From a virus: a stretch of 55,644 nucleotides of DNA. Below the pieces are notes generated by a model that saw only the letters and a program-made list of their open reading frames with translations, was not told where the DNA came from and did no database searches. This document shows positions 1 through 55,644 of the stretch, piece after piece. Positions within the stretch are counted from its first letter, which is position 1. Every line of letters starts with the position of its first letter. The translations under genes were made by a program, and so were the position numbers. The stretch covers positions 1 through 55,644 of IMG/VR virus record IMGVR_UViG_3300008261_000025, one strand, 5' to 3'.

Positions 1-44
1 CTAAAATAATTTAATCTTATTAATTCTTACAAAAATATATTGAT
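1..44. repeat. Terminal direct repeat, copy 1 (circular closure)
   Basis: Bases 1-44 are identical to 55,601-55,644. A short exact overlap of this size at the ends of a contig is the usual signature of a circular (or circularly permuted) molecule cut open by an assembler, not a biological long terminal repeat. The first early promoter spans its edge, so the rightward operon runs straight through the junction. Confidence 0.9.
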
Positions 45-67
45 AATTATTTTTTATTAAATAAAAT
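40..67 (+). promoter_or_regulatory. Early promoter P0
   Basis: TTGATA at 40-45, a 16-bp spacer and TAAAAT at 62-67. The T/A-rich spacer closely matches the promoters at 3754, 43322, 48238 and 49586. The -35 box lies on the edge of the terminal overlap. It should drive the membrane peptide and the methyltransferase genes. Confidence 0.75.
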
Positions 68-79
68 ATAATTATCGGA

Positions 80-3064: not shown

Positions 3065-3757
3065 ATGAACTTTTTTAACAAATTTTTCTTAGATATAGAT
3101 AAAGTTGAAACTATATCTCATTCTGTGGTTCTGGTTGAAAAAAATTTTTTCTCTTTGAAGGGAAAACTTAATAAGGCAATGAGACTTCAAATACAAAGCC
3201 CATTTTCTAATCTAGCAAATTCATTAGCATTAAAAAGTGTTTTTAAAAAACCAGTGATTGAGCCTTTTTCAAATTCTCTACAATCTTACAGAGAATTTGA
3301 GTCTGATAATTTTGTAATAACTTATGATAAATTAAGCTTAAGATTTGGAATAGAAGACAAAATACCAGAACAAAGAAATAATTTAGTTAGAAAAATAGCT
3401 ACTGATTTAATTAATCTTGCCGAAGTAGAAGAAGACATTGGAGCAATTGGAGTAAATTACGAAATGTTTTTACCAGAAAATAATTTAGACCTTAAAAAAT
3501 TATTTTTAAAAAAAGATATTGCGGAAACTTTTGATAATTTATTCATAACACCTGTATTTGAAATTGATAAATTTATAACTCTAAATTTAAAGATTGTTTC
3601 TGGAATAGTTGATTATAAAGAAGGTATTTTTTTTGATGTTAATTTTCACATTGAAATTGATGAATATGGATCGCAAAAAATTAGTAATATTTTAGAAAAC
3701 GACTTTTGCAAGATTGCTAAAAATAAAATTTTGCATTTAATGGCAAAAACTTCTTGA
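3065..3757 (+). CDS. Hypothetical protein (230 aa)
   Basis: Begins 6 bases after the read-through end of the cytosine methyltransferase. It is a soluble protein with alternating beta-rich and helical stretches and no motif I can assign. Its last codons overlap the -35 box of the next early promoter (TTGACA at 3754), so that promoter is partly inside the gene. It belongs to the methyltransferase operon by position. The function is unknown. Confidence 0.75.
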   Translation: MNFFNKFFLDIDKVETISHSVVLVEKNFFSLKGKLNKAMRLQIQSPFSNLANSLALKSVFKKPVIEPFSNSLQSYREFESDNFVITYDKLSLRFGIEDKIPEQRNNLVRKIATDLINLAEVEEDIGAIGVNYEMFLPENNLDLKKLFLKKDIAETFDNLFITPVFEIDKFITLNLKIVSGIVDYKEGIFFDVNFHIEIDEYGSQKISNILENDFCKIAKNKILHLMAKTS

Positions 3758-3802
3758 CATTTATTTTTTATTAAATAAAATATATTTGTTGGTATTTGCC
3801 AA
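3754..3802 (+). promoter_or_regulatory. Early promoter P1 with 5'-terminal stem-loop
   Basis: TTGACA at 3754-3759, 16-bp spacer, TAAAAT at 3776-3781. About 7 bases further, TTGGT (3789-3793) pairs with GCCAA (3798-3802) around the loop ATTT, so the stem-loop would lie at the very 5' end of the RNA. It drives the coiled-coil gene through ssb. Confidence 0.75.
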
Positions 3803-35577: not shown

Positions 35578-36024
35578 TTACTTTTTTTCATCAGTAAAAA
35601 CCACATTAACAACTGGCATTTGCATTTTAATTGGTTCACCGTTCTCGCCTGTGAGTTCGTTTCGCTGGATTGATTTTCCGTGAACTCTATCGATAAGTTC
35701 TTGCAATGCTTTAAATGCTACTTCGTGCTTGTCTGATTTTGTCAAGTCCATAAGTTTATAAGCAATAAAACCCATTTCTTTTAAGTCCTGAGCTAAATCT
35801 GGTTTGTTTTGAGATTTTGCCTGATCCATCATCCTTCTCTCGTAGATTTCCATTGCAATTTCTAGCTGTTGTTTTAGGCTTTTTTTTTCAGCTTTGATTT
35901 TATTTGTTGCTTCTGCCCCCTTCCTAGCTATTTCTTTTCTTTCCTGTTGCGATTTGGCTGCGAGGTTATGCTTTCTTATTCTTTTCAGCCTATCTTCTTT
36001 CTCTTGTTTTTTCTTATCGTCCAT
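35578..36024 (-). CDS. Terminase small subunit-like protein (148 aa)
   Basis: Very charged, helical protein. Residues 1-60 are basic (KKQEKEDRLKRIRKHNLAAKSQQERKEIARKGAEATN), a region common in DUF5681-like or KGG-type small terminase proteins. The rest is a helical domain (ALQELIDRVHGKSIQRNELTGENGEPI) whose 'A...l.dR..GK..q' end is widely seen in small terminase homologues. It recognises phage DNA and loads the large subunit. It overlaps the ParB-methyltransferase by 11 bases and precedes terL. Confidence 0.75.
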   Translation of the reverse strand: MDDKKKQEKEDRLKRIRKHNLAAKSQQERKEIARKGAEATNKIKAEKKSLKQQLEIAMEIYERRMMDQAKSQNKPDLAQDLKEMGFIAYKLMDLTKSDKHEVAFKALQELIDRVHGKSIQRNELTGENGEPIKMQMPVVNVVFTDEKK

Positions 36025-37288
36025 TTGTAAAATCTCCTATGCAATCCACCCCATTTCTTTTAACAAAGAGAGGTAAATTATTTTGTTGACAAAAGTTAAT
36101 ATACCGCCTAACGATAACATCGCAATACTTCTCTTCTAATTCAATTAGGCGAGATTTTCTTTTCGATTTTTCGCAAGCGATAAGTGTTGACCCCGAACCG
36201 CCAAAGCAGTCAAGAATTATATCATTTTCATTCGAGCAATCTAATATTGCATCGATTATCAATTCTACTGGCTTTACTGTAGGGTGCATTCTCTGCTCCT
36301 CTTTATCCCAAGAGCTATTAATTGACCTATAATCCCATACATTGGTTCTATATCTTCCTTCTTTGCCGTCTATTGATTGCCCTAATTGAAAGTTATTAAT
36401 ATGCTGTTTTGAGCCGTTTTTAAAAACAAATACCAATTCGTGCTTACTTCTATAAAATGCCCCCATTCCGCCATTATCCTTATTCCAAACACAAAGGTTT
36501 TTTAATTCTGTAAAAGATAACCTGCCAGCAGTAATAATTTCGTAAATGTGTTTCCAATCCATGCAAACATAATGTATTGAGCCGTCGATTGATTTTTTAA
36601 CTAGATTTGCAAAGACACTTACTAAGAAATCAACAAACTCATTTTCGGTCATCTCACCAGAAGCCATTTTAAATTCTTGATGTTTTGCCTTTCCCATCCC
36701 TACAACAGAAGATATTTTTACATTATAAGGTGGATCTGTAAAAATCATCGTTGCTAAATTATCATCCATTAATTTATTAAAATCTTTTATATCTCTTGAA
36801 TCACCACAAAGCAATTTATGATTGCCTAATTCATATAAATCGCCTAATTTTGTTATAATATTATCTGGCTCTTCTGGTAAATCGTCCTCGCCGATAGTCT
36901 CTTTTATTTTATCCTCAAAACTTATTTCTGGCATTTCTAAGCCCCAGCTATTTAAATCTAAACTATCAAAATTAATTTTTAATAAATCAAAATCCCATTC
37001 GCCAGTATTTGCATTTAATCTAATATTCAGTTCTTTTTCATTTTCCAATGTTAATTCAACAATAACACAATCTATTTCCTTATAACCTAGTTTTTTTAAC
37101 TCCCTAACACGAAAATGACCACCTATAATAATGTTTTTTCTATTAGCATTATCATTTACAATAATTGGCTCTACAGCACCAAATTTTTCTAAACTATTTT
37201 TTAGGGCTTCTTCTTGTTTTTTATTAGATTTTCTTGGGTTGTATTCTGCTGGTTTTAAATCCTTTATTAATCTTTTTTCAATTCTCAT
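36014..37288 (-). CDS. ParB-like nuclease domain fused to N4/N6 DNA methyltransferase (424 aa)
   Basis: Residues 1-95 are a ParB/Srx-like domain: LKPAEYNPRKSNKKQEEALKNS, FGAVEPIIVN and the signature IIGGHFRVRELKKLGY. Residues about 160-405 are an AdoMet methyltransferase of the DPPY-first (beta) class: TDPPYNVKISS near residue 189, then HPTVKPVELI and DCFGGSGSTLIAC. It methylates an exocyclic amino group in a short motif. ParB-methyltransferase fusions often sit just before terminase genes. It is the first gene of the leftward arm, so it may be made early in the late programme and could mark packaged DNA. It overlaps terS. Confidence 0.9.
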   Translation of the reverse strand: MRIEKRLIKDLKPAEYNPRKSNKKQEEALKNSLEKFGAVEPIIVNDNANRKNIIIGGHFRVRELKKLGYKEIDCVIVELTLENEKELNIRLNANTGEWDFDLLKINFDSLDLNSWGLEMPEISFEDKIKETIGEDDLPEEPDNIITKLGDLYELGNHKLLCGDSRDIKDFNKLMDDNLATMIFTDPPYNVKISSVVGMGKAKHQEFKMASGEMTENEFVDFLVSVFANLVKKSIDGSIHYVCMDWKHIYEIITAGRLSFTELKNLCVWNKDNGGMGAFYRSKHELVFVFKNGSKQHINNFQLGQSIDGKEGRYRTNVWDYRSINSSWDKEEQRMHPTVKPVELIIDAILDCSNENDIILDCFGGSGSTLIACEKSKRKSRLIELEEKYCDVIVRRYINFCQQNNLPLFVKRNGVDCIGDFTNGR

Positions 37289-37347: not shown

Positions 37348-37366
37348 TATTTTTAAAAAAAGATGA

Positions 37367-37437
37367 AAATAGCCGTTGACTTTTTATTTTTTATTACATA
37401 AAATATCTTTTGTCAAGAGTTCTTGACAATTACTAAT
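37367..37437 (+). repeat. 71-bp perfect direct repeat, copy 1 (contains promoter P2 and stem-loop)
   Basis: All 71 bases recur at 41,448-41,518. The unit holds TTGACT (37376-37381), a 17-bp spacer, TAAAAT (37399-37404), and an 8-bp stem TTGTCAAG (37410-37417) with CTTGACAA (37422-37429) around the loop AGTT. The two copies bracket exactly the six-gene Ibr/EctC-like cassette. Confidence 0.9.
37376..37429 (+). promoter_or_regulatory. Early promoter P2 with 5'-terminal stem-loop
   Basis: TTGACT, 17 bp, TAAAAT, then a perfect 8-bp stem with loop AGTT beginning 6 bases after the -10 box, i.e. at the predicted transcript start. It drives the modification-like cassette. Confidence 0.78.
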
Positions 37438-37452
37438 CTAACTAAAAATAAA

Positions 37453-37761
37453 ATGAAAACAGAATGGAAACAATTAGTTTGCAATTCAAATTTAATGCAA
37501 GCAGAAACTGATCGTGCAATATTAATTAAATTGCCAAAAAGCGAATTAAAGTTCTGGCATCCCTCTAAATTAGTGAGAACTAGCGGTAAATCTGGATATA
37601 GAATGACTATCGCTTATACTGACAGTTTTGTTTTTAAATGCTTTAGAAATGGCAAAGGTCGCTATAATTCTCATGAAAAAATTGAGGAATGTGAGTTTAA
37701 TAGCAAAGAAATCGAAGAAATATTTGGCAAAACTCAACAATCAGAAAAAACAGAAGAATAG
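37453..37761 (+). CDS. Hypothetical protein (102 aa), first gene of the cassette
   Basis: The start is ATG 37453 after an A-rich leader; an upstream in-frame ATG at 37423 lies in the leader hairpin and is unlikely. The protein is basic with a strand-rich middle (ELKFWHPSKLVR, YRMTIAYTDSFVFKCFRNGKGRYNSHEK) and a Glu-rich tail. The pattern resembles small single-domain nucleic-acid-associated phage proteins, but I cannot name a family. The next gene encodes a similar-sized protein with the same W-x-P-x-K-L-(V/F)-R segment, so the two may be diverged paralogues. Confidence 0.65.
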   Translation: MKTEWKQLVCNSNLMQAETDRAILIKLPKSELKFWHPSKLVRTSGKSGYRMTIAYTDSFVFKCFRNGKGRYNSHEKIEECEFNSKEIEEIFGKTQQSEKTEE

Positions 37762-37768
37762 CAAAAAA

Positions 37769-38023
37769 ATGACGAATAGATTTTTAGTAAAAGTAAAAAT
37801 CAAAGATATTTTGCACCAAACTGAAAAAGCAACCTTATTTTTGATTAGCGAATCAGAAATTTGGTTGCCAAATAAACTATTTAGATTTGGTAAGGGTAAT
37901 TATATTACATTATGGAACGATATTGCCAACAGTAAAAATCTTGATTATGATACACTTTATCACGAGCCTGAAAAAATAGAGCCAGTTTATAATCAACAAC
38001 CTATTAATGAGTTAATAGCATGA
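37769..38023 (+). CDS. Hypothetical protein (84 aa), possible paralogue of the preceding gene
   Basis: I start at ATG 37769 (MTNRFLVKVKIKD); the longer open frame upstream runs antiphase through the previous gene. Residues 12-50 contain EKATLFLISESEIWLPNKLFRFGKG, echoing the AILIKLPKSELKFWHPSKLVR part of the preceding protein: a strand, 'sE(i/l)..W.P.KL.R', then a basic strand. This suggests tandem duplication. The stop overlaps the IbrA-like start by 4 bases (ATGA). The function is unknown. Confidence 0.6.
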   Translation: MTNRFLVKVKIKDILHQTEKATLFLISESEIWLPNKLFRFGKGNYITLWNDIANSKNLDYDTLYHEPEKIEPVYNQQPINELIA

Positions 38024-39315
38024 AAAAATACTTAGATATAAATGTTTTTGATGCCTCTATTGAGAGGATAAAATTTATTTTTGATAATTTTGAGAGGGTA
38101 TATCTTTCTTTTAGTGGCGGAAAGGACAGTGGAGTTATGCTAAATCTAGTTCTTGATTATATGCGAGCTAATAAAATAGAGCAAAAATTAGGAATAATGA
38201 TATTAGATAACGAAGCAAATTACAAAGATTCTACTGACTTTATGGAGCGAATGATTGAAAATAATCTTGATTTAATAGAGCCTTATTGGTGCTGTCTTCC
38301 TATTACTTTACCCTGCACTGTTAGTGCCTATCATACAGAATGGCAATGCTGGGGCGAGAAAGATAAAGACAGATGGATTCGTCCGTTGTCAAAAAAGCCA
38401 TATGTTATAAATTTTCAAAATCATAATTTTCCATTTTTTAAAGAGAATATGAATTATGATGATTTTTGGGATAATTTTGGCAAATGGTATGGTCAAGGCA
38501 AAAAGACGGCTTGCTTAATTGGAATTAGAACAGACGAAAGTTTGAATAGGTTTAGAGCTATTATGAATAAAAAAAAGAAGATGGTAAATGGTAAATTTTG
38601 GACTAAACATAAAATTGATAATGTTTTTAATTGCTACCCTATTTATGATTGGTCTGTTGACGATATATGGACGGCTAATGTAAAATTCGATTGGGATTAT
38701 AACGAGCTTTATGATAAATTTTATCTAGCGGGAATGTCTCCTTATGCTATGCGAGTTGCAAGTCCGTTTATGAGTGAATCAAAATCATCTTTAAATCTTT
38801 ATAGAGTAATTGATCCAGAAGCTTGGCAAAAACTTTATTGCCGAGTAAATGGTGCAAATTTTATTGCTACTTACGGCGGTCAATTAGATTGGAAAAAAGT
38901 TAAATTACCGAGTGGACATACTTGGCGATCTTTTACTAAGTTTTTACTTAATTCTTTACCGAAGCCAGTTGCCGATAATTACAAGCAAAGATTTTGTCAA
39001 GCATTAAGATTTTGGTCAAGAAAAGGAAGGGGCATTGATGATAATATTATTAATCAATTAAAAGAAAATAATATACCGCACAAAATTAATGGTTTAACTC
39101 CGCACGGTTCAAAAACAAAGCAAAGAGTTATTATTCAAAAATTCCCCGATGAGCTTGATTGTTTATCTTGTCCACCGAGTGTTGTTGCTAGTTGGAAACG
39201 ATTTGCAATTACTATTTTGCGAAACGATCATACTTGCAAATATCTTGGGTTAGGTCAAACACAAGAGCAAATAAAAAGACAAAGGGAAATAATGGAAAAA
39301 TATAAAAATTTATAA
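38020..39315 (+). CDS. IbrA-like PAPS-reductase-family protein (PP-loop, DUF3440)
   Basis: 431 residues. The N-terminal PP-loop SGGKDSG at residues 32-38 binds the ATP/PAPS phosphate, and a second typical segment is LIGIRTDESLNRFRAI near residue 168. The middle (YPIYDWSVDDIW) and C-terminal LDCLSCPPSVVASWKRF..., with its two Cys in C-L-S-C, match the IbrA/DUF3440 extension of PAPS-reductase-like proteins. IbrA of E. coli acts with ParB-like IbrB, and homologues are frequent on phages; their chemistry is not established. Here the IbrB-like gene follows one gene later, with an EctC-like cupin in between. Confidence 0.85.
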   Translation: MKKYLDINVFDASIERIKFIFDNFERVYLSFSGGKDSGVMLNLVLDYMRANKIEQKLGIMILDNEANYKDSTDFMERMIENNLDLIEPYWCCLPITLPCTVSAYHTEWQCWGEKDKDRWIRPLSKKPYVINFQNHNFPFFKENMNYDDFWDNFGKWYGQGKKTACLIGIRTDESLNRFRAIMNKKKKMVNGKFWTKHKIDNVFNCYPIYDWSVDDIWTANVKFDWDYNELYDKFYLAGMSPYAMRVASPFMSESKSSLNLYRVIDPEAWQKLYCRVNGANFIATYGGQLDWKKVKLPSGHTWRSFTKFLLNSLPKPVADNYKQRFCQALRFWSRKGRGIDDNIINQLKENNIPHKINGLTPHGSKTKQRVIIQKFPDELDCLSCPPSVVASWKRFAITILRNDHTCKYLGLGQTQEQIKRQREIMEKYKNL

Positions 39316-39319
39316 AAAT

Positions 39320-39700
39320 ATGTTTATTAGGAAAATATCAGATATTATCGGCACTGATCGAGATATCGAATTTAGCCACAGTGGTTTTAAATCTCAAAGA
39401 TTACTTTTAGAAAAAGATGGAATGGGATTTTCATTCCATAAAACTATTTTGCCAAAGGGATTAAAACAAATTTGGCATTATAAAAAACATCTTGAGGCTT
39501 GCTACTGTATTGAGGGAGAGGCTTTTGTTACCGATTTAACAAATGGTAATGTGTTTCATATTTTGCCTGAAACAATTTATGTTTTAAATAATCACGAAAA
39601 ACATCAATTCGAGGCGATAAAAGACACAATTTTAATATCAGTATTTAATCCGCCTGTAAAAGGCAATGAGCAACACAACAACGAGGGAAGTTATGAATAA
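39320..39700 (+). CDS. Ectoine-synthase-like cupin (EctC family)
   Basis: 126 residues, the EctC size, and collinear with EctC from end to end: RKISDIIGTDRDI, QRLLLEKDGMGFSFH, WHYKKHLEACYCIEGEAFV, YVLNNHEKHQFEA, VFNPPVKGNEQHNNEGSY. From remembered EctC structures, the iron ligands Glu, Tyr and His map to Glu59, Tyr87 and His95. Substrate-site residues map to Arg27, Thr42, Tyr54, His57, Phe109, Glu117 and His119. The usual substrate-side Trp is Phe23 here. EctC closes N-gamma-acetyl-diaminobutyrate to ectoine; no EctA or EctB is present in the genome. It overlaps the IbrB-like start, so a different substrate within this cassette is likely. Confidence 0.85.
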   Translation: MFIRKISDIIGTDRDIEFSHSGFKSQRLLLEKDGMGFSFHKTILPKGLKQIWHYKKHLEACYCIEGEAFVTDLTNGNVFHILPETIYVLNNHEKHQFEAIKDTILISVFNPPVKGNEQHNNEGSYE

Positions 39701-40202
39701 ATCACCTGTATATAATATAAAGGCAGTTCCGCTAGAAAAGATACAAGCAAATGCTTACAACCCTAATAGTGTTGCTCCGCCTGAAATGAAATTATTAGAA
39801 TTGTCAATTTGGGAAGATGGCTATACAATGCCTATTGTTTGTTATTATTTAGCCGAGATTGATAAGTATGAAATAGTCGATGGTTATCATAGATATACAA
39901 CGATGCTAAAAAGCGAAAGAATTAGAGAGCGAGAGAATGGTTTAATACCAGTTTCTGTTATTGATAAGCCGCAAGGTGAAAGAATGGCATCAACAATTAG
40001 GCACAATAGAGCAAGAGGTTCGCACTCGGTAGAATTAATGTCTAATATTGTTGCAGAATTAGTAGAAATGGGTAAATCCGATGCTTGGATTGCAAAGCAT
40101 GTTGGTATGTCTGCCGATGAGCTACTTAGAATGAAACAAATTACAGGACTAGCAAGTTTATTCAAAGACAAAGAATTTAGCAAGTCTTGGGAGGCTGAAT
40201 AA
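39693..40202 (+). CDS. IbrB-like ParB/Srx-domain protein
   Basis: The start is ATG 39693, set by a rare good Shine-Dalgarno (GAGGG) and by overlap with the cupin stop. 169 residues: VPLEKIQANAYNPNSVAPPEMKLLE, MPIVCYY, then the ParB box IVDGYHRYTTM near residue 67, and IRHNRARGSHSVELM. The C-terminal part is a helix-turn-helix-like KSDAWIAKHVGMSADEL. This is the layout of IbrB, the partner of IbrA in E. coli. ParB/Srx folds can be CTPases, nucleases or sulfiredoxin-like ATP enzymes, so the activity is open. Gene order IbrA, cupin, IbrB is unusual. Confidence 0.84.
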   Translation: MNKSPVYNIKAVPLEKIQANAYNPNSVAPPEMKLLELSIWEDGYTMPIVCYYLAEIDKYEIVDGYHRYTTMLKSERIRERENGLIPVSVIDKPQGERMASTIRHNRARGSHSVELMSNIVAELVEMGKSDAWIAKHVGMSADELLRMKQITGLASLFKDKEFSKSWEAE

Positions 40203-40204
40203 AA

Positions 40205-41449
40205 GTGGATAATTTTAATTATCAACAAAATGCTTTTGAAAAATTAGATAAATTAAAGGGCGGAATTCTATTTATGTCAATGGGAACTGGCAAGACTAAG
40301 GTTGCCGTTGATTTAGCCATATCAAAACAAGATAAATTTGATATAGTGTTATGGATCGCCCCAGCCTCTTTAATTTGTGAAGATAATTATAAGGCAGAAA
40401 TTGATAAATGGGGTAATAACCTCAAAAAACCGATAAAGTATTTTTCGATTGAAGGTGTTGGCAGTAGCGAAAATAATTTTCTTAATCTAATTAATTTAGC
40501 AACAAATAATAAAACATTTTGCATAATTGACGAAAGCATAACTATTAAAAATATGATTGCCAAAAGAACTAAAAGATTAATAGAAAATTGGCATCTTTTT
40601 ACTTTTAGATTAATTCTCAATGGCACTCCACTCACTAATAGCTTGCTTGATTTATATTCACAAATTAATTTTATTCACCCGTCAATATTAAAAATGACTG
40701 AAAGTCAATTTGCTAATAATTTTTTATGTTTTAAAAAAGATAGCTACCGTAGTTATGCAAAATCAAACAAACCAGCAAATCAAGAAGCATTAATAGAAAT
40801 AATAAGACCATATATATTTGACACCGCACTTTTAATTGACAAGAAAATTTATAATAAAGAGTTTATAGTAAAAATGTCTATTTTTGAAAAATTTAACTAC
40901 GAAAATTTTAAAAATAACATAATCAATTCTAGCGAGCAAATTATGGATTTTCTAGGCATAGCACAAAAATTGCAAAATTTTTATTCAAATAATTGCGAAG
41001 AGAAATTTGTTAAATTAAAAGAAATTGCGGAAAATATATTGGCAAAAGGCGAAAAAGTTATAATATATGTAAAGTTTTTAAGCGAATTAGAAAAATTAAA
41101 GGAATTATTTAAAGATGCGGTAGAATATTCTGGCAAAGACAAAAGCGGTATTTCTAAGTTTAAAAAAGATGCTAATATACTAATATCAACTTATGGAACT
41201 GGAAGTTTAGGACATAATCTGCAATTTTGCAATAATATTATTTACTTTACTCAAACATTTAATTACAAAGATAAGGAACAAAGTCTACATAGAATATATC
41301 GAGTCGGGCAGAAAAAAGATTGCAATATATATAATTTTTATATCAACACCGGACTTGACAAATTGATAGAAAATAATTTGATTAAAAAAACAAATTTACT
41401 TTTTGATGTAAAAAAAATAATTTCACAAAATAATTTAAAAAATTTGTAA
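40205..41449 (+). CDS. SNF2-like DNA helicase/translocase (414 aa)
   Basis: GTG start 2 bases after the IbrB-like stop. Helicase motifs in order: NYQQNAFEKL (Q-like), Walker A MGTGKTK at 26-32, APASLI (Ia), IDES at 108-111 (Walker B, followed by IKN as in SNF2 enzymes), NGTPLTN (III), and in domain 2 STYGTGSLGHNLQFCNNIIYF (V) and LHRIYRVGQKKDCNIYNF (VI). This is a minimal two-domain SF2 motor without accessory domains, a size common in phages. It could remodel or translocate on DNA for replication or for the Ibr-type cassette it belongs to. Confidence 0.88.
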   Translation: MDNFNYQQNAFEKLDKLKGGILFMSMGTGKTKVAVDLAISKQDKFDIVLWIAPASLICEDNYKAEIDKWGNNLKKPIKYFSIEGVGSSENNFLNLINLATNNKTFCIIDESITIKNMIAKRTKRLIENWHLFTFRLILNGTPLTNSLLDLYSQINFIHPSILKMTESQFANNFLCFKKDSYRSYAKSNKPANQEALIEIIRPYIFDTALLIDKKIYNKEFIVKMSIFEKFNYENFKNNIINSSEQIMDFLGIAQKLQNFYSNNCEEKFVKLKEIAENILAKGEKVIIYVKFLSELEKLKELFKDAVEYSGKDKSGISKFKKDANILISTYGTGSLGHNLQFCNNIIYFTQTFNYKDKEQSLHRIYRVGQKKDCNIYNFYINTGLDKLIENNLIKKTNLLFDVKKIISQNNLKNL

Positions 41450-41518
41450 ATAGCCGTTGACTTTTTATTTTTTATTACATAAAATATCTTTTGTCAAGAG
41501 TTCTTGACAATTACTAAT
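41448..41518 (+). repeat. 71-bp perfect direct repeat, copy 2 (contains promoter P3 and stem-loop)
   Basis: Identical to 37,367-37,437. It begins at the helicase stop codon and ends in the leader of the next gene. Recombination between the copies would remove or restore 4,081 bp, the full cassette, and leave one promoter behind. Confidence 0.9.
41457..41510 (+). promoter_or_regulatory. Early promoter P3 with 5'-terminal stem-loop
   Basis: TTGACT 41457-41462, 17 bp, TAAAAT 41480-41485, then the 8-bp AGTT-loop hairpin at 41491-41510. It drives the small-gene block starting with a DUF4116-like protein. Confidence 0.78.
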
Positions 41519-41540
41519 TTAACTAAAAACTAAAAACAAA

Positions 41541-42044
41541 ATGACAAACTACAAATATAACACTTATGCCGAAGCATTTGAAGCAGTAAAAAGTTCTTAC
41601 TGTAATATAGAAAAAGTTAATCCTGAAATAGAAAATTACGAAGCTATTGTTATTATTGCACTAAGTAAAAATTATTGCGCTTTACAATATGTAAGCGATA
41701 AAGCAAGAGATAATAAAGATATTGCTACAATTGCAGTAAGTCAATCTGGTGACAATATAATTTATGTAAGCGATAGATTAAAAGATAACTATGATATTGC
41801 TATGATTGCGGTAAGCAACAGTTTTGATTGTATCAAAAGGGTAAGTGAAAGATTAAGAGATGACGAACAGCTTGGTATGATTTCGGTAAGTAAAAGTTGG
41901 CTAAATTTACAATTTTTAAGCGAAAGACTGAAAAATAATAAAAAAATTGTTATGGTTGCAGTAAGCAGAAATGGTGAAGCCTTGAATATTGCTGGCGAAG
42001 AGCTAAGAAATGATCCTGAATTAATTGCTTTGGCAAAAAGATAA
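41541..42044 (+). CDS. DUF4116-like repeat protein (167 aa, divergent)
   Basis: Five or six units of about 25 residues are recognisable, each with the form 'D..iA.iAVS.S...i.yVSdrLrdn', such as KDIATIAVSQSGDNIIYVSDRLKDN and YDIAMIAVSNSFDCIKRVSERLRDD. It ends RNDPELIALAKR, the same closing unit as the other DUF4116 proteins in this genome. Here AVS replaces the AVK of the others, so it is an older paralogue. The function of DUF4116 is unknown; the units probably stack as helical pairs, like other solenoids. It is the first gene after P3. Confidence 0.8.
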   Translation: MTNYKYNTYAEAFEAVKSSYCNIEKVNPEIENYEAIVIIALSKNYCALQYVSDKARDNKDIATIAVSQSGDNIIYVSDRLKDNYDIAMIAVSNSFDCIKRVSERLRDDEQLGMISVSKSWLNLQFLSERLKNNKKIVMVAVSRNGEALNIAGEELRNDPELIALAKR

Positions 42045-43072: not shown

Positions 43073-43321
43073 ATGATAAAAACAAACACTCATTATCCAA
43101 ACACTCATTATCGTATATGCCTAGAAAAGCCTACTCGAGATGCAGTAAAACTTATTGATAAATATTTTATTGCTGGAGCAGATAAAAATCTTTGCGAATA
43201 TTTTGCAAAATTTGACAAAGAATATGATGGTAAATCTTATAATTCTTTTTCTTTGCTAACAAAAATTAAGATTTATCATTTACATTGCACTATTGATATT
43301 TTAAATGATTTAATTAAATAG
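43073..43321 (+). CDS. Hypothetical protein (82 aa)
   Basis: Small protein with several His and Tyr residues. Its first codons lie on a tandem 14-base duplication (two copies of an ACACTCATTATC unit giving NTHYPNTHYR). The remainder is mixed helix: AVKLIDKYFIAGADKNLCEYFAKFDKEY. It ends one base before promoter P4. No family is recognised. Confidence 0.6.
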   Translation: MIKTNTHYPNTHYRICLEKPTRDAVKLIDKYFIAGADKNLCEYFAKFDKEYDGKSYNSFSLLTKIKIYHLHCTIDILNDLIK

Positions 43322-43377
43322 TTGACATTTATTTTTTATTATATAAAATATTTTTTATAGTATATCGGATTTACCGA
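43322..43377 (+). promoter_or_regulatory. Early promoter P4 with nearby stem-loop
   Basis: TTGACA 43322-43327, 16 bp, TAAAAT 43344-43349. TCGG (43365-43368) and CCGA (43374-43377) pair around the loop ATTTA, 15 bases after the -10 box. It drives the ankyrin gene and following small genes. Confidence 0.72.
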
Positions 43378-43448: not shown

Positions 43449-43718
43449 ATGAAAAACATAATTAACTTAATAAAAGAAAACGATTTTGAAGGGTTTAAAA
43501 CTGCAATAGAGAATGGTGCAGATGTTAATGCAAAAACTATTCACGGGTGGAATTATCTGCATTTTGCATCTTCCCTTAATCGTAAAGAATTTGCGGAATT
43601 TTTGATTGAAAAAGGGATAGATATTGAAGCAAAAGATCAGGATGGCTGGACTCCTTTATATATTGCAGAACAGGAATGTTATCAAGAAATGATTGATTTA
43701 TTAACAAACAAAAAATAA
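43449..43718 (+). CDS. Ankyrin repeat protein (89 aa)
   Basis: Two to three ankyrin units are clear: the NDFEGFKTAIENGADVNAKT cap, HGWNYLHFASSLNRKEFAEFLIEKGIDIEAKD, and QDGWTPLYIAEQECYQEMIDLL. It has the same opening and closing units as the longer ankyrin protein at 50,580, so the two are paralogues. Ankyrin repeats bind other proteins and are common in phages of eukaryote-associated bacteria, although not limited to them. The target is unknown. No signal peptide is present. Confidence 0.85.
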   Translation: MKNIINLIKENDFEGFKTAIENGADVNAKTIHGWNYLHFASSLNRKEFAEFLIEKGIDIEAKDQDGWTPLYIAEQECYQEMIDLLTNKK

Positions 43719-48075: not shown

Positions 48076-48237
48076 ATGTTTTGGAATTATTTAACTTTGC
48101 TTTTTATTGCCTTAAAACTTACCAATTATATTGACTGGTCATGGTGGCTAGTATTATCACCGATGCTAATTTTGATTAGCTTTATATTAATGTTGGTAAT
48201 ATTTTATTTAATTCTTGATTTTATTAGCAGAAAATAG
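48076..48237 (+). CDS. Small phage membrane protein, 'Fragile-X-F'-like (53 aa)
   Basis: ATG 48076 to TAG 48235-48237. The sequence opens FWNYLTLLFIALKLTNYIDWSWWLVLSPM, the same pattern as the small phage membrane proteins labelled transmembrane Fragile-X-F-like ('..LtllFvvLKLtg.IdWSWwwVl.P'). A second membrane helix follows (LILISFILMLVIFYLIL). Function unknown; such genes are common beside replication and recombination genes. Its stop precedes promoter P5 by one base. Confidence 0.75.
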   Translation: MFWNYLTLLFIALKLTNYIDWSWWLVLSPMLILISFILMLVIFYLILDFISRK

Positions 48238-48265
48238 TTGACATTTATTTTTTATTAAATAAAAT
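48238..48265 (+). promoter_or_regulatory. Early promoter P5
   Basis: TTGACA 48238-48243, 16 bp, TAAAAT 48260-48265; identical to P1 from the -35 through the -10 box. It is followed by structured leader RNA copy B and the exonuclease gene. Confidence 0.78.
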
Positions 48266-48278
48266 ATATTTTAGTGAA

Positions 48279-49555: not shown

Positions 49556-49585
49556 AAAAATAATTATTTTTTTAAAATAACACCA

Positions 49586-49634
49586 TTGACATTTATATTT
49601 TATTTAATAAAATATAAATGTCAAAATTTCTTGA
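49586..49634 (+). promoter_or_regulatory. Early promoter P6 with 5'-terminal stem-loop
   Basis: TTGACA 49586-49591, 16 bp, TAAAAT 49608-49613. TCAA (49621-49624) pairs with TTGA (49631-49634) around AATTTC, 7 bases after the -10 box. It drives the Erf gene. Confidence 0.7.
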
Positions 49635-51187: not shown

Positions 51188-51406
51188 ATGTTTTACTACT
51201 TGTTAATGCTAATCTTTTTATGTTTTATTGCTGCTATCTTATGTTATGGCAATAATGCAAGCAAGATTTTTGGCTGTGATATAAAAAATAAAGTTGCTAG
51301 AAAAATAGTTATTATTGCTCTATCAATTATTTTAGGCTTATCTTTGCCAATTGCAATAATGCAAAATTGCTTAAAAAATCAAATAACTAAATATTTAAAA
51401 AAATGA
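51188..51406 (+). CDS. Two-span membrane protein (72 aa)
   Basis: Hydrophobic helices at about residues 2-21 (YYLLMLIFLCFIAAILCY) and 38-60 (IVIIALSIILGLSLPIAIM), with a short basic C-tail. No family is recognised. It overlaps the start of the large DUF4116 gene by 4 bases (ATGA), so the two are co-translated, which raises the possibility that it anchors or assists the repeat protein. Confidence 0.62.
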   Translation: MFYYLLMLIFLCFIAAILCYGNNASKIFGCDIKNKVARKIVIIALSIILGLSLPIAIMQNCLKNQITKYLKK

Positions 51407-52212
51407 CAAATGCAATTTGGAACGACAAAGAGTTTGTTCTTGAAAGAGTTAAGCGAGATGGATGGTGTCTTAAATTTGCTAGCGACAATTTGCGAAACAA
51501 TAAAGAGGTTGTTTTGGCGGCAGTTAAGGAAAATGGCTTGGCTCTTGTATATGCCAGCGACGAGTTAAAAAATGACAAAGAAGTAGTTTTAGCGGCAGTT
51601 AAGGAATGGGGCTTGGCTCTTGAATATGCCAGCGACGAGCTAAAAAATGACAAAGAGTTTGTTCTTGAGGCAGTTAAGGAAAATGGCTCTGCTCTTAGAT
51701 ATGTTAGCCTAAAGTTGCAAAATGACAAAGAGTTTGTTCTTGAGGCAGCTAAGGAAAATGGCTTGGCTCTTGTATATGCCAGCGACGAGTTAAAAAATGA
51801 CAAAGAAGTAGTTTTAGCGGCAGTTAAGGAATGGGGCTTGGCTCTTAAATTTGCCAGCCCCGAATTACGAAATGACAAAGAGGTCGTTCTTGAGGCAGTT
51901 AAGCAAAATGTCTCTGCTCTTAGATATGTTAGCCTAAAGTTGCAAAATGACAAAGAGTTTGTTCTTGAAAGAGTTAAGCGAGATGGATGGTGTCTTAAAT
52001 TTGCTAGCGACAATTTGCGAAACAATAAAGAGGTTGTTCTTGAGGCAGTTAAGCAAAATGGCTTGGCTCTTGAATATGCCAGCGACGAGTTAAAAAATGA
52101 CAAAGAGTTTGTTTTGGTGGCGGTGAAGGAAAATAAAGATGCTCTTGCATATGCCAATAAAGAATTCCAAAATGATCCCGAACTTGTTGCCTTGGCAAAA
52201 TCTAATTATTAA
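51403..52212 (+). CDS. DUF4116 repeat protein with ten near-identical 25-aa units (269 aa)
   Basis: Ten tandem units of exactly 25 residues (75 bp) fill the protein: (N/D)KE(F/V)VL-A-VK-NG-ALxYAS-(E/N)L(K/R)N, closing with NDPELVALAKSNY. Units 1 and 8 are the same, and the unit 2-3 pair recurs as units 5-6, also at DNA level (offsets of 525 and 225 bp). That pattern shows recent duplication or gene conversion. The fold is probably a helical-hairpin solenoid for protein binding. The opposite strand is also open for 256 codons, but only as a shadow of the repeat. Confidence 0.88.
   Translation: MTNAIWNDKEFVLERVKRDGWCLKFASDNLRNNKEVVLAAVKENGLALVYASDELKNDKEVVLAAVKEWGLALEYASDELKNDKEFVLEAVKENGSALRYVSLKLQNDKEFVLEAAKENGLALVYASDELKNDKEVVLAAVKEWGLALKFASPELRNDKEVVLEAVKQNVSALRYVSLKLQNDKEFVLERVKRDGWCLKFASDNLRNNKEVVLEAVKQNGLALEYASDELKNDKEFVLVAVKENKDALAYANKEFQNDPELVALAKSNY
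51412..52190. repeat. 75-bp tandem repeats inside the DUF4116 gene
   Basis: Ten 75-bp units, with long stretches identical between units (for example GACAAAGAGTTTGTTCTTGA occurs in several units). The exact 75-bp register means unequal recombination changes unit number without a frameshift. Confidence 0.85.
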
Positions 52213-54760: not shown

Positions 54761-55171
54761 ATGCAAAATTATTCTAATAAATCAATTGAAACTATTGCCA
54801 ACATTTTTAAAGAAGTAAATTTTAAAGATGTTGACAATGTTTTTCCAGTGCCAATAGGTGAAATATGTGATAAAATTTGCTTAAATGATATTAGTCTTAA
54901 TAAAGATGACAATGTTGACAAATGCTTATTTAAGATAGCCAATTATATTGGTTGTTCTGTTTTATATCATAAAAATTTTATAGATTTAGAAATTAAGCAA
55001 AAACAAGAAGTAAATGATTTTGCTTTAGAATTAATTTTGCCAGAAAGTAAATTTATTGATATATTTTTCGAAACTAGAAAAAATTTTAAAAGAATAGCTA
55101 ATTTTTTAGGAGTTTCTGCCTCTTTAGCTGAAAAAAGAGCATTTTATTTAGGATTAATTGATAGCTTATAA
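54761..55171 (+). CDS. ImmA/IrrE-like protein lacking HExxH (136 aa)
   Basis: The C-terminal half has QEVNDFALELILPESKFIDIFFETRKNFKRIANFLGVSASLAEKRAFYLGLI, the ImmA/IrrE 'EaNdFAa.LLmP...f.......... iA..f.VS..a...Rl..Lgli' pattern. The preceding HExxH metal site, expected some 15-30 residues earlier, is absent; the region reads SVLYHKNFIDLEIKQK. It is thus a degenerate homologue, probably without protease activity. ImmA-type proteins cleave phage repressors; an inactive one could bind without cutting. It follows dut by 2 bases. Confidence 0.65.
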   Translation: MQNYSNKSIETIANIFKEVNFKDVDNVFPVPIGEICDKICLNDISLNKDDNVDKCLFKIANYIGCSVLYHKNFIDLEIKQKQEVNDFALELILPESKFIDIFFETRKNFKRIANFLGVSASLAEKRAFYLGLIDSL

Positions 55172-55175
55172 CAAA

Positions 55176-55604
55176 ATGACAAATACAGAAAATTGGAATG
55201 ATAAAAAGTTCGTTCTTGAAGCGGTTAGCCAAAATGGCTGGTCTCTTAGATATGCTAGCGAAAAGTTAAAAAATAATAAGGAGGTCGTTTTAGCGGCGGT
55301 TAGGCAAAATGGAATTGCTCTTATGTGGGCTAGCTACAGGCTACGAAATAATAAGGAGGTTGTTTTAGCGGCGGTTAAGGAGAATATCAATTCTATTTGG
55401 TTTGCTAACGATAAGTTAAGAAAAAATAAAGAAATTGCCATTGAAGCTATTAAACAAAATGGTAACGCTCTTAAATATTTTAGCGACAATTTGCGAAACA
55501 ATAAAGAGGTTGTTTTAGAGGCGGTTAAGCAAGATCGCTTTGCTCTTGTATATGCCAGTCCAAAATTGCGAAATGATCCAAAGCTTATTGCTTTGGCAAG
55601 CTAA
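55176..55604 (+). CDS. DUF4116 repeat protein (142 aa)
   Basis: I start at ATG 55176 (MTNTENWNDKKFVLEAV), after the A-rich ACAAAATG context; an ORF start at 55158 lies in the previous gene. Five 25-residue units of form 'NKEVVLAAV(R/K)(Q/E)NG.AL..AS..LRN' follow, closing with RNDPKLIALAS. It is close in sequence to the ten-unit protein at 51,403 but with more variation. It is the last gene before the circular junction. The function is unknown. Confidence 0.83.
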   Translation: MTNTENWNDKKFVLEAVSQNGWSLRYASEKLKNNKEVVLAAVRQNGIALMWASYRLRNNKEVVLAAVKENINSIWFANDKLRKNKEIAIEAIKQNGNALKYFSDNLRNNKEVVLEAVKQDRFALVYASPKLRNDPKLIALAS

Positions 55605-55644
55605 AATAATTTAATCTTATTAATTCTTACAAAAATATATTGAT
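55601..55644. repeat. Terminal direct repeat, copy 2 (circular closure)
   Basis: Exact copy of bases 1-44. It begins inside the stop region of the last DUF4116 gene, so joining the two ends gives a continuous rightward gene run: the DUF4116 gene, then the first early promoter, then a small membrane peptide. The unique genome length is therefore 55,600 bp. Confidence 0.9.

Follow-up and report, generated by a model that had tools for sequence, protein, structure and literature searches.

The IbrA/IbrB pair, the ectoine synthase EctC and the ectoine hydroxylase EctD are all known protein families. To our knowledge, nobody knows the chemistry of IbrA and IbrB, and the pair is carried by many phages and by hundreds of enterobacterial plasmids. 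Systems of similar make-up are Dnd/Ssp (DndC/DndB) and the 7-deazaguanine system Dpd (DpdB), in which a PP-loop or other modifying enzyme likewise occurs with a ParB-superfamily protein; the partnership of ParB-family proteins with DNA-modifying enzymes is documented for DndB/DndC and DpdB (PMC12839542). Here we describe a trio of viral genes encoding IbrA, an EctC-like cupin and IbrB. It is found in an IMG/VR virus record (IMGVR_UViG_3300008261_000025, here G000), the whole of which, 55,644 bases, is referred to as the window.

A sequence-only reading of the window had described a cassette of these three genes and an SNF2 motor, encoded back to back; the genes, their order and their tight spacing are all present, with coordinates confirmed and domains matched (Table 1). 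A protein with a PP-loop and a DUF3440 domain adjoins a ParB-like protein, which identifies the pair as IbrA/IbrB. The known pairs of phages, prophages and plasmids belong to the same families and have the same operon order, with 42-49% IbrA identity, but they lack a cupin, and the cupin-linked IbrA proteins form a separate clade. Unlike Dnd, Ssp and Dpd, the trio has a cupin instead and an IbrA far below the DndC cut-offs, and no Dnd, Ssp or Dpd partner was found among the window proteins scanned. We found no description of the trio as a system in the papers searched. A 2025 survey of the ParB fold mentions neither cupins nor ectoine (PMC12704722), and the only remark in a study of Mycobacterium abscessus prophages concerns cysteine-dioxygenase-like and PAPS-reductase-like genes in one prophage (PMC8092301).

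A virus-restricted unit of IbrA, cupin and IbrB

Searching 2.9 million viral contigs with the cupin, IbrA, a distant IbrA and IbrB as anchors gave 300 loci. Because the scans used short exact peptide patterns and the best 80 matches were kept, absolute numbers are lower bounds. When IbrA types were sorted by profile searches over the 300 loci, the window type was found with the cupin and the other types never were. The complete trio was present in 106 non-redundant viral loci, from metagenomic viruses and from Mycobacterium and Pseudoalteromonas phages. The order was IbrA-EctC-IbrB in 101 of them, EctC-IbrB-IbrA in three and IbrB-IbrA-EctC in two, the genes in these five permuted loci still being adjacent. 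The median gap between IbrA and the cupin was 11 bases, and in 31 of the 106 loci EctC and IbrB were fused in one open frame. The least biased sample is the IbrB-anchored one (non-redundant loci, full-length IbrA only), where the cupin was present in 28/28 loci with window-type IbrA and in 0/37 with other IbrA. No cupin was found in 80 generic viral IbrA loci.

Among named phages, the cupin directly follows IbrA in Mycobacterium phages Gaia and Nebkiss and in Pseudoalteromonas phage XCL1123. In Gaia (gp103-gp104) it is fused to IbrB. The annotators of the Gaia and XCL1123 records, which carry the same system as the window, noticed the domain fusion ("ectoine synthase/ParB multidomain protein"), and no text found proposes a function or a system. 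Phage record MT835761 was rejected as a further example: it is bacterial contamination, in which a gene for an EctB-like aminotransferase lies upstream of EctC.

Outside viruses, a scan of 84,980 species genomes by exact peptide patterns, which may miss members, found the window-type trio on three contigs, all with the full trio and all from metagenome bins. One of these (L152) also has genes of phage type, judged by eye to be replication genes and one resembling a lysin gene. None of 579 plasmid IbrA matches was of the window type, the best being 43% identical. Plasmid EctC genes were rejected as trio members, since the loci opened were canonical ectABC clusters or solitary genes, none adjoining IbrA.

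The genes are also inherited together. A tree of 165 IbrA rows has a branch of 92 (SH-aLRT 100) that includes every one of the 90 rows with a cupin; the window and its relatives are the first to split off inside this branch. Its two cupin-less rows are L142, whose contig ends at IbrA, and L093, the only apparent loss within the clade, which has a 1-Cys peroxiredoxin gene in the cupin slot between IbrA and IbrB (L093:3847-4608). The 114 phage cupins fall on one side of a branch (support 99) that separates them from 14 cellular EctC proteins of cluster and orphan type. Pairwise distances of cupin and IbrA correlate at 0.62, and at 0.57 with IbrB removed. Judging from these trees and distances and from the fused frames, descent links the cupin to IbrA, and fusion links it to IbrB.

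It could be argued that the three genes are chance neighbours, carried jointly as cargo, given that the other neighbours (SNF2 and small proteins) vary freely. This is already contradicted by the 28/28 versus 0/37 distribution, the single clade, the 31 fused loci and the five permuted loci with adjacent genes, and we regard it as highly improbable. From co-occurrence, fusion and co-inheritance it can be deduced that the trio is one conserved, essentially virus-restricted unit, and very probably a single functional one. The earlier proposal that the cupin belongs with IbrA/IbrB is thereby upheld: the neighbourhood search it called for found the linkage in more than 100 loci, which fully disposes of the prospect that no other genome would have it.

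Conserved and altered features of the proteins

The window cupin matches Pfam Ectoine_synth (5.6e-44) and scores 154.6 bits against the NCBIfam ectoine synthase model (cut-off 128), a cut-off missed by the fused Gaia protein and by the cupins of L113 and L105. Like EctC, orphan EctC included, the phage cupins retain the fold, the length, the iron ligands and most substrate residues. In EctC numbering, with residue roles taken from the crystal structures (PMC6344544), S23, R25, T40, Y52, E57 and Y84 are kept in 114/114 and H92 in 113/114, so that the iron ligands Glu-57, Tyr-84 and His-92 number 114, 114 and 113. The differences lie elsewhere. In EctC, Trp-21 packs on the substrate, its replacement by Ala leaves ~10% of the activity, and it is conserved in all 437 cluster EctC proteins and also, at times shifted, in 145 orphans (PMC6344544). 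In contrast, none of the 114 phage cupins has it in the aligned column, and only one has any Trp before the SxR motif. Asn-38 is replaced by Thr, His or another residue in 112/114; both positions are changed in the window. The phage cupins also differ from EctC in forming their own monophyletic branch, in always accompanying IbrA/IbrB and in lacking EctA and EctB. Neither EctA (TIGR02406) nor an EctB-class aminotransferase (Aminotran_3) was found in 50 trio records, several of which are fragments. Given these absences and the loss of Trp-21, the trio is not an ectoine pathway, and ectoine synthesis as an auxiliary metabolic gene was rejected. Since the iron ligands and most substrate residues are kept while Trp-21 is gone and Asn-38 changed, the phage cupins have probably kept the type of reaction, in which iron assists an N-acyl diamine to close into a ring and water is lost; their substrate probably differs from that of ectoine synthase. 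We lean towards a cupin that works on a non-ectoine substrate and gives an ectoine-like ring.

An invariant CxC motif (Cys61 in the window) was considered as a phage-only mark and rejected, because several cellular orphan EctC proteins have a CYC motif too. The function of solitary EctC was left unresolved in PMC5924519, where the most basal EctC group consists of M. abscessus EctC-like proteins of doubtful function; this group may, as a candidate only, be of the phage cupin type. Orphan EctC proteins may have a chemistry related to that of the phage cupins. On a Gloeothece plasmid (L316:2501-4100), a solitary cellular EctC gene adjoins a GNAT gene and a tryptophan 7-halogenase-like gene.

The window IbrA matches Pfam DUF3440 (2e-56), PAPS_reduct (1.7e-11) and phrog_2302 (3.9e-113). 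In Foldseek, its AF2 model (pLDDT 87) best matched adenosine 5'-phosphosulfate (APS) and 3'-phospho-APS (PAPS) reductases, then ATP sulfurylase, FAD synthase, TtuA/NcsA and TilS; the last three are tRNA-modifying PP-loop enzymes. An intact ATP-type PP-loop (SGGKDS) is present in 59/59 IbrA sequences and ECG[ILV]H, the catalytic cysteine motif of PAPS reductase, in 0/59. On this basis "PAPS reductase" is a name by fold only, and assignment to CysH was rejected although the fold matches. Nor was a four-cysteine Fe-S site as in some thiolases supported, since IbrA proteins do not share C99, C110 and C406 throughout.

These features bear on a redox or sulfur pathway, in which IbrA would move sulfur, IbrB would be sulfiredoxin-like and the cupin thiol dioxygenase-like. 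The IbrA fold is close to those of PAPS/APS reductase and ATP sulfurylase, CxC is invariant in the cupin, the M. abscessus prophage encodes cysteine-dioxygenase-like and PAPS-reductase-like proteins (PMC8092301), and L093 has a peroxiredoxin in place of the cupin, the more notable because the IbrB fold likewise resembles sulfiredoxin. However, all 59 IbrA sequences have the ATP-type loop and lack ECG[ILV]H, the cupin ligand set is that of EctC and not of thiol dioxygenase, CxC is common to cellular orphan EctC, and the peroxiredoxin is a single case. We consider such a pathway quite improbable; the sulfur chemistry proposed from the sequence found no specific support.

The window IbrB matches phrog_2159 (5.6e-80) and falls below the cut-offs of Pfam ParB_N (22.9 bits; 26.3) and of the ParB partition family TIGR00180 (15.7 bits; 58.45). 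Its model (168 aa, pLDDT 82, pTM 0.64) matched Noc, ParB and KorB in Foldseek (E 1e-7 to 1e-5, TM up to 0.6) over 148-164 columns spanning both halves, the NTPase domain and then the helix-turn-helix. The first half also matches SbnI and sulfiredoxin, as does the IbrB motif G-[YF]-H-R, and IbrB matches SerK weakly.

The resemblance to KorB and Noc would also fit transcriptional control, with IbrA/IbrB activating phage genes and the cupin acting as a non-catalytic ligand sensor. Cupins serve as sensor domains of other regulators, and a weak AraC_binding match was obtained. A passage of PMC4490671 describes IbrA/IbrB as co-activators of prophage gene expression. A pure sensor, however, would have no need of iron ligands and catalytic residues that are invariant in 113-114 of 114 cupins, and the cupin slot is exchanged with enzymes (EctD, GNAT, methyltransferase, peroxiredoxin), so that this role is improbable.

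The slot between IbrA and IbrB holds other genes in some loci. In L013 and L024, an EctD-like gene lies between IbrA and the cupin. The encoded proteins have EctD as best match in the PDB (8.9e-77 and 8.3e-44, respectively) and keep the ectoine hydroxylase signature HSDFETWHxxDGMP at 15 or 16 of 17 positions; they differ from EctD in this placement and in their scores of 285 and 173 bits, which fall short of the TIGR02408 cut-off (336.5). These are the only PhyH genes across the 50 trio records, and a dedicated scan for further EctD-bearing phages returned L013 and L024 only. The insertion of an EctD-like enzyme between IbrA and the cupin suggests an ectoine-like ring product. In L024, one frame of 493 residues (L024:6001-7479) follows the EctD-like gene and combines EctC and IbrB with, between them, a class I methyltransferase-like domain (weak Pfam matches; phrog_21658, 3.4e-18). 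In cupin-less relatives, the same slot is taken in L257, L259, L262, L283, L237 and L176 by a GNAT acetyltransferase-like gene; Pfam supports this for L257, marginally for L283 and not for L237, and the other three were grouped by profile. In L248 it is taken by a methyltransferase-like gene, to which L244 and L301 look similar by eye, and elsewhere by other genes. The slot thus has the look of a position for tailoring enzymes that act on the IbrA/IbrB product.

A possible route to a cyclic amidine

Our preferred reading, to which we give a probability of about 0.42, is that with this trio phages build a cyclic amidine, the likely carrier being DNA or a nucleotide, and that IbrB contributes DNA binding. 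IbrA would use its PP-loop and ATP to activate a carbonyl or carboxylate and to join, or else expose, an amine of amino-acid type. The cupin, as an Fe(II) Lewis-acid enzyme, would close the ring with loss of water as in ectoine synthase, giving an ectoine-like tetrahydropyrimidine, to which some phages would add EctD-type hydroxylation or methylation. IbrB, with its ParB-like nucleotide-binding domain and DNA-binding half, would place the system on phage DNA. The result could be a hypermodified DNA base or nucleotide that shields phage DNA from host nucleases. We infer the ring chemistry from the EctC active site kept in 113-114 of 114 cupins and the EctD-like genes beside the cupin, and the DNA target from the ParB-like fold of IbrB, the cupin-IbrB fusions, the methyltransferase fusion and the DndB/DndC/DpdB precedents. 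The parts of this reading differ in strength. A DNA or nucleotide target falls somewhat short of an even chance. The more specific form, in which a cupin held by a ParB-type DNA-binding protein closes an amino-acid-derived side chain of a base to an ectoine-like cyclic amidine, in some phages with later EctD-type hydroxylation or methylation, is tentative, and an anti-restriction purpose is doubtful. We know of no nucleic acid with ectoine-like cyclic amidine chemistry. The amine chemistry on nucleotides or a metabolite suggested earlier is a possibility that fits the EctC active site and the EctD in the slot.

The target could instead be a free small molecule, with IbrA activating a precursor, IbrB acting as a metabolite kinase like SerK or SbnI, and the product being a signalling metabolite or else a cyclic amidine that is soluble and either ectoine-like or derived from glutamine, such as ADPC. 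The EctC product is a free solute and the EctD substrate is free ectoine; EctC of Halomonas elongata slowly cyclises glutamine to ADPC (PMC5924519), and the G-[YF]-H-R motif and fold of IbrB match SbnI and sulfiredoxin, and SerK weakly. The absence of EctA and an EctB-class aminotransferase from the 50 trio records, the loss of Trp-21 and the fusion of the cupin to a ParB-like protein with a DNA-binding half argue against this pathway, which we think rather unlikely.

Several points weigh against the preferred reading, a cyclic amidine made on DNA or a nucleotide. Its product and target are both inferred. The IbrA score is far under the DndC cut-off (29.4 versus 290.4 bits, TIGR03183), and membership of Dnd was rejected. 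EctD is present in only 2/106 loci; the two EctD proteins share 35% identity and accompany sister IbrA genes, so this was one old acquisition. Coupling of the cupin to IbrB is looser than to IbrA, because in some loci IbrB is replaced by another subtype (the 238-bit group), and the partial cupin-IbrB distance correlation of 0.12 agrees. IbrB could also be a transcription regulator instead: its fold resembles the repressor KorB, and co-activation of prophage genes is the annotated role of IbrA/IbrB. Finally, a passage of PMC12704722 holds that the nucleotide specificity of the ParB fold is not reliably predictable from sequence.

The operon, its neighbours and the wider system

Table 1. Features of the window operon (G000) and of related sites and loci.
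Feature	Position	Strand	Remarks
Promoter/operator block before operon	37367..37446	+	TTGACT-17-TAAAAT 37376-37404; near-palindrome TTGTCAAGAGTTCTTGACAA 37410-37429
Small protein 1	37453..37761	+	102 aa; phrog_27058; lineage-specific neighbour, not core
Small protein 2	37769..38023	+	84 aa; paralogue of small protein 1; lineage-specific, not core
IbrA	38020..39315	+	PP-loop ATP pyrophosphatase-type domain (SGGKDS) + DUF3440; cupin-linked IbrA clade
EctC-like cupin, phage-type clade	39320..39700	+	Fe ligands E59, Y87, H95 kept; extra Cys61
IbrB	39693..40202	+	ParB/sulfiredoxin-type NTPase domain, then ParB-like helix-turn-helix DNA-binding half (predicted)
SNF2-type helicase	40205..41449	+	Outside conserved unit; co-transcribed by position here and in close kin
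Promoter-like site family	37349-37410, 41430-41491, 43294-43355, 48210-48271, 49558-49619, 3726-3787, 12-73		Before rightward genes
~120-aa family, examples among many others	L048:2419-2769, L002:6891-7241, L149:4621-4977		

The same 44 bases stand at both ends of the window (1-44 = 55601-55644), so the genome in this record is probably complete and circularly permuted. Small protein 2 and IbrA overlap by four bases, a four-base gap separates IbrA from the cupin, and the cupin and IbrB overlap by eight bases if IbrB starts at ATG 39693, another in-frame ATG lying upstream at 39666. SNF2 follows IbrB after two bases and has a GTG start codon. The promoter described ahead of the cassette was found, as a real-looking TTGACT-17-TAAAAT followed by a 20-bp near-palindrome. 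A near-identical block stands at ~41451-41530 (elements 41457-41510), ahead of the next transcription unit, a DUF4116 gene. Seven similar promoter-like sites (TTGAC..., TAAAAT at 17 bases) precede rightward genes in the window. The near-palindrome occurs at only two of them and nowhere else in the genome (chance expectation 0.02 matches), which suggests that the operon and the DUF4116 gene share a repressor.

The SNF2 protein (Pfam SNF2-rel_dom, 2.2e-14) and the two small proteins had been read as parts of the system. The small proteins are indeed paralogous (hhalign probability 99.3%, E 4e-20, 55 columns). However, all three genes are limited to the close kin of the window and a few others and also lie beside cupin-less IbrA/IbrB pairs (L144, L145 and L239); they were rejected as core and are co-travellers of one lineage. 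In most viral IbrA/IbrB loci, a family of ~120-residue proteins (NRxAWxGQAACxxxxxxPExITRxAW) is encoded beside IbrB or IbrA: it was found in 98/107 cupin loci, 81 times directly after IbrB, and in 78/104 cupin-less IbrA/IbrB loci. It is absent from the lineage of the window, and the members tested had no Pfam or PHROG match. We regard this family as a candidate for a fourth member of the wider IbrA/IbrB system.

The window phage also has three DNA methyltransferase genes (884-1909, 1899-2948 and 36014-37288), of D12-type adenine, C5-cytosine and ParB-N6/N4 fusion types. DUF4116 repeat proteins are encoded at 51403-52212, 55158-55604 and 41541-42044, with 75-base units and ~8 repeats in one gene, and ankyrin-repeat proteins at 43449 and 50520. 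Together, these repeat proteins suggest that the phage host lives inside eukaryotic cells.

A virus-specific clade that obligatorily joins IbrA/IbrB to an EctC-type cupin, and at times to an EctD-like enzyme, constrains both of these unexplained families. The cultured phages Gaia, Nebkiss and XCL1123 carry the system, which makes the main idea directly testable. If the target is DNA, the trio would make a new base modification; if the target is a metabolite, it would be a new viral small-molecule pathway.

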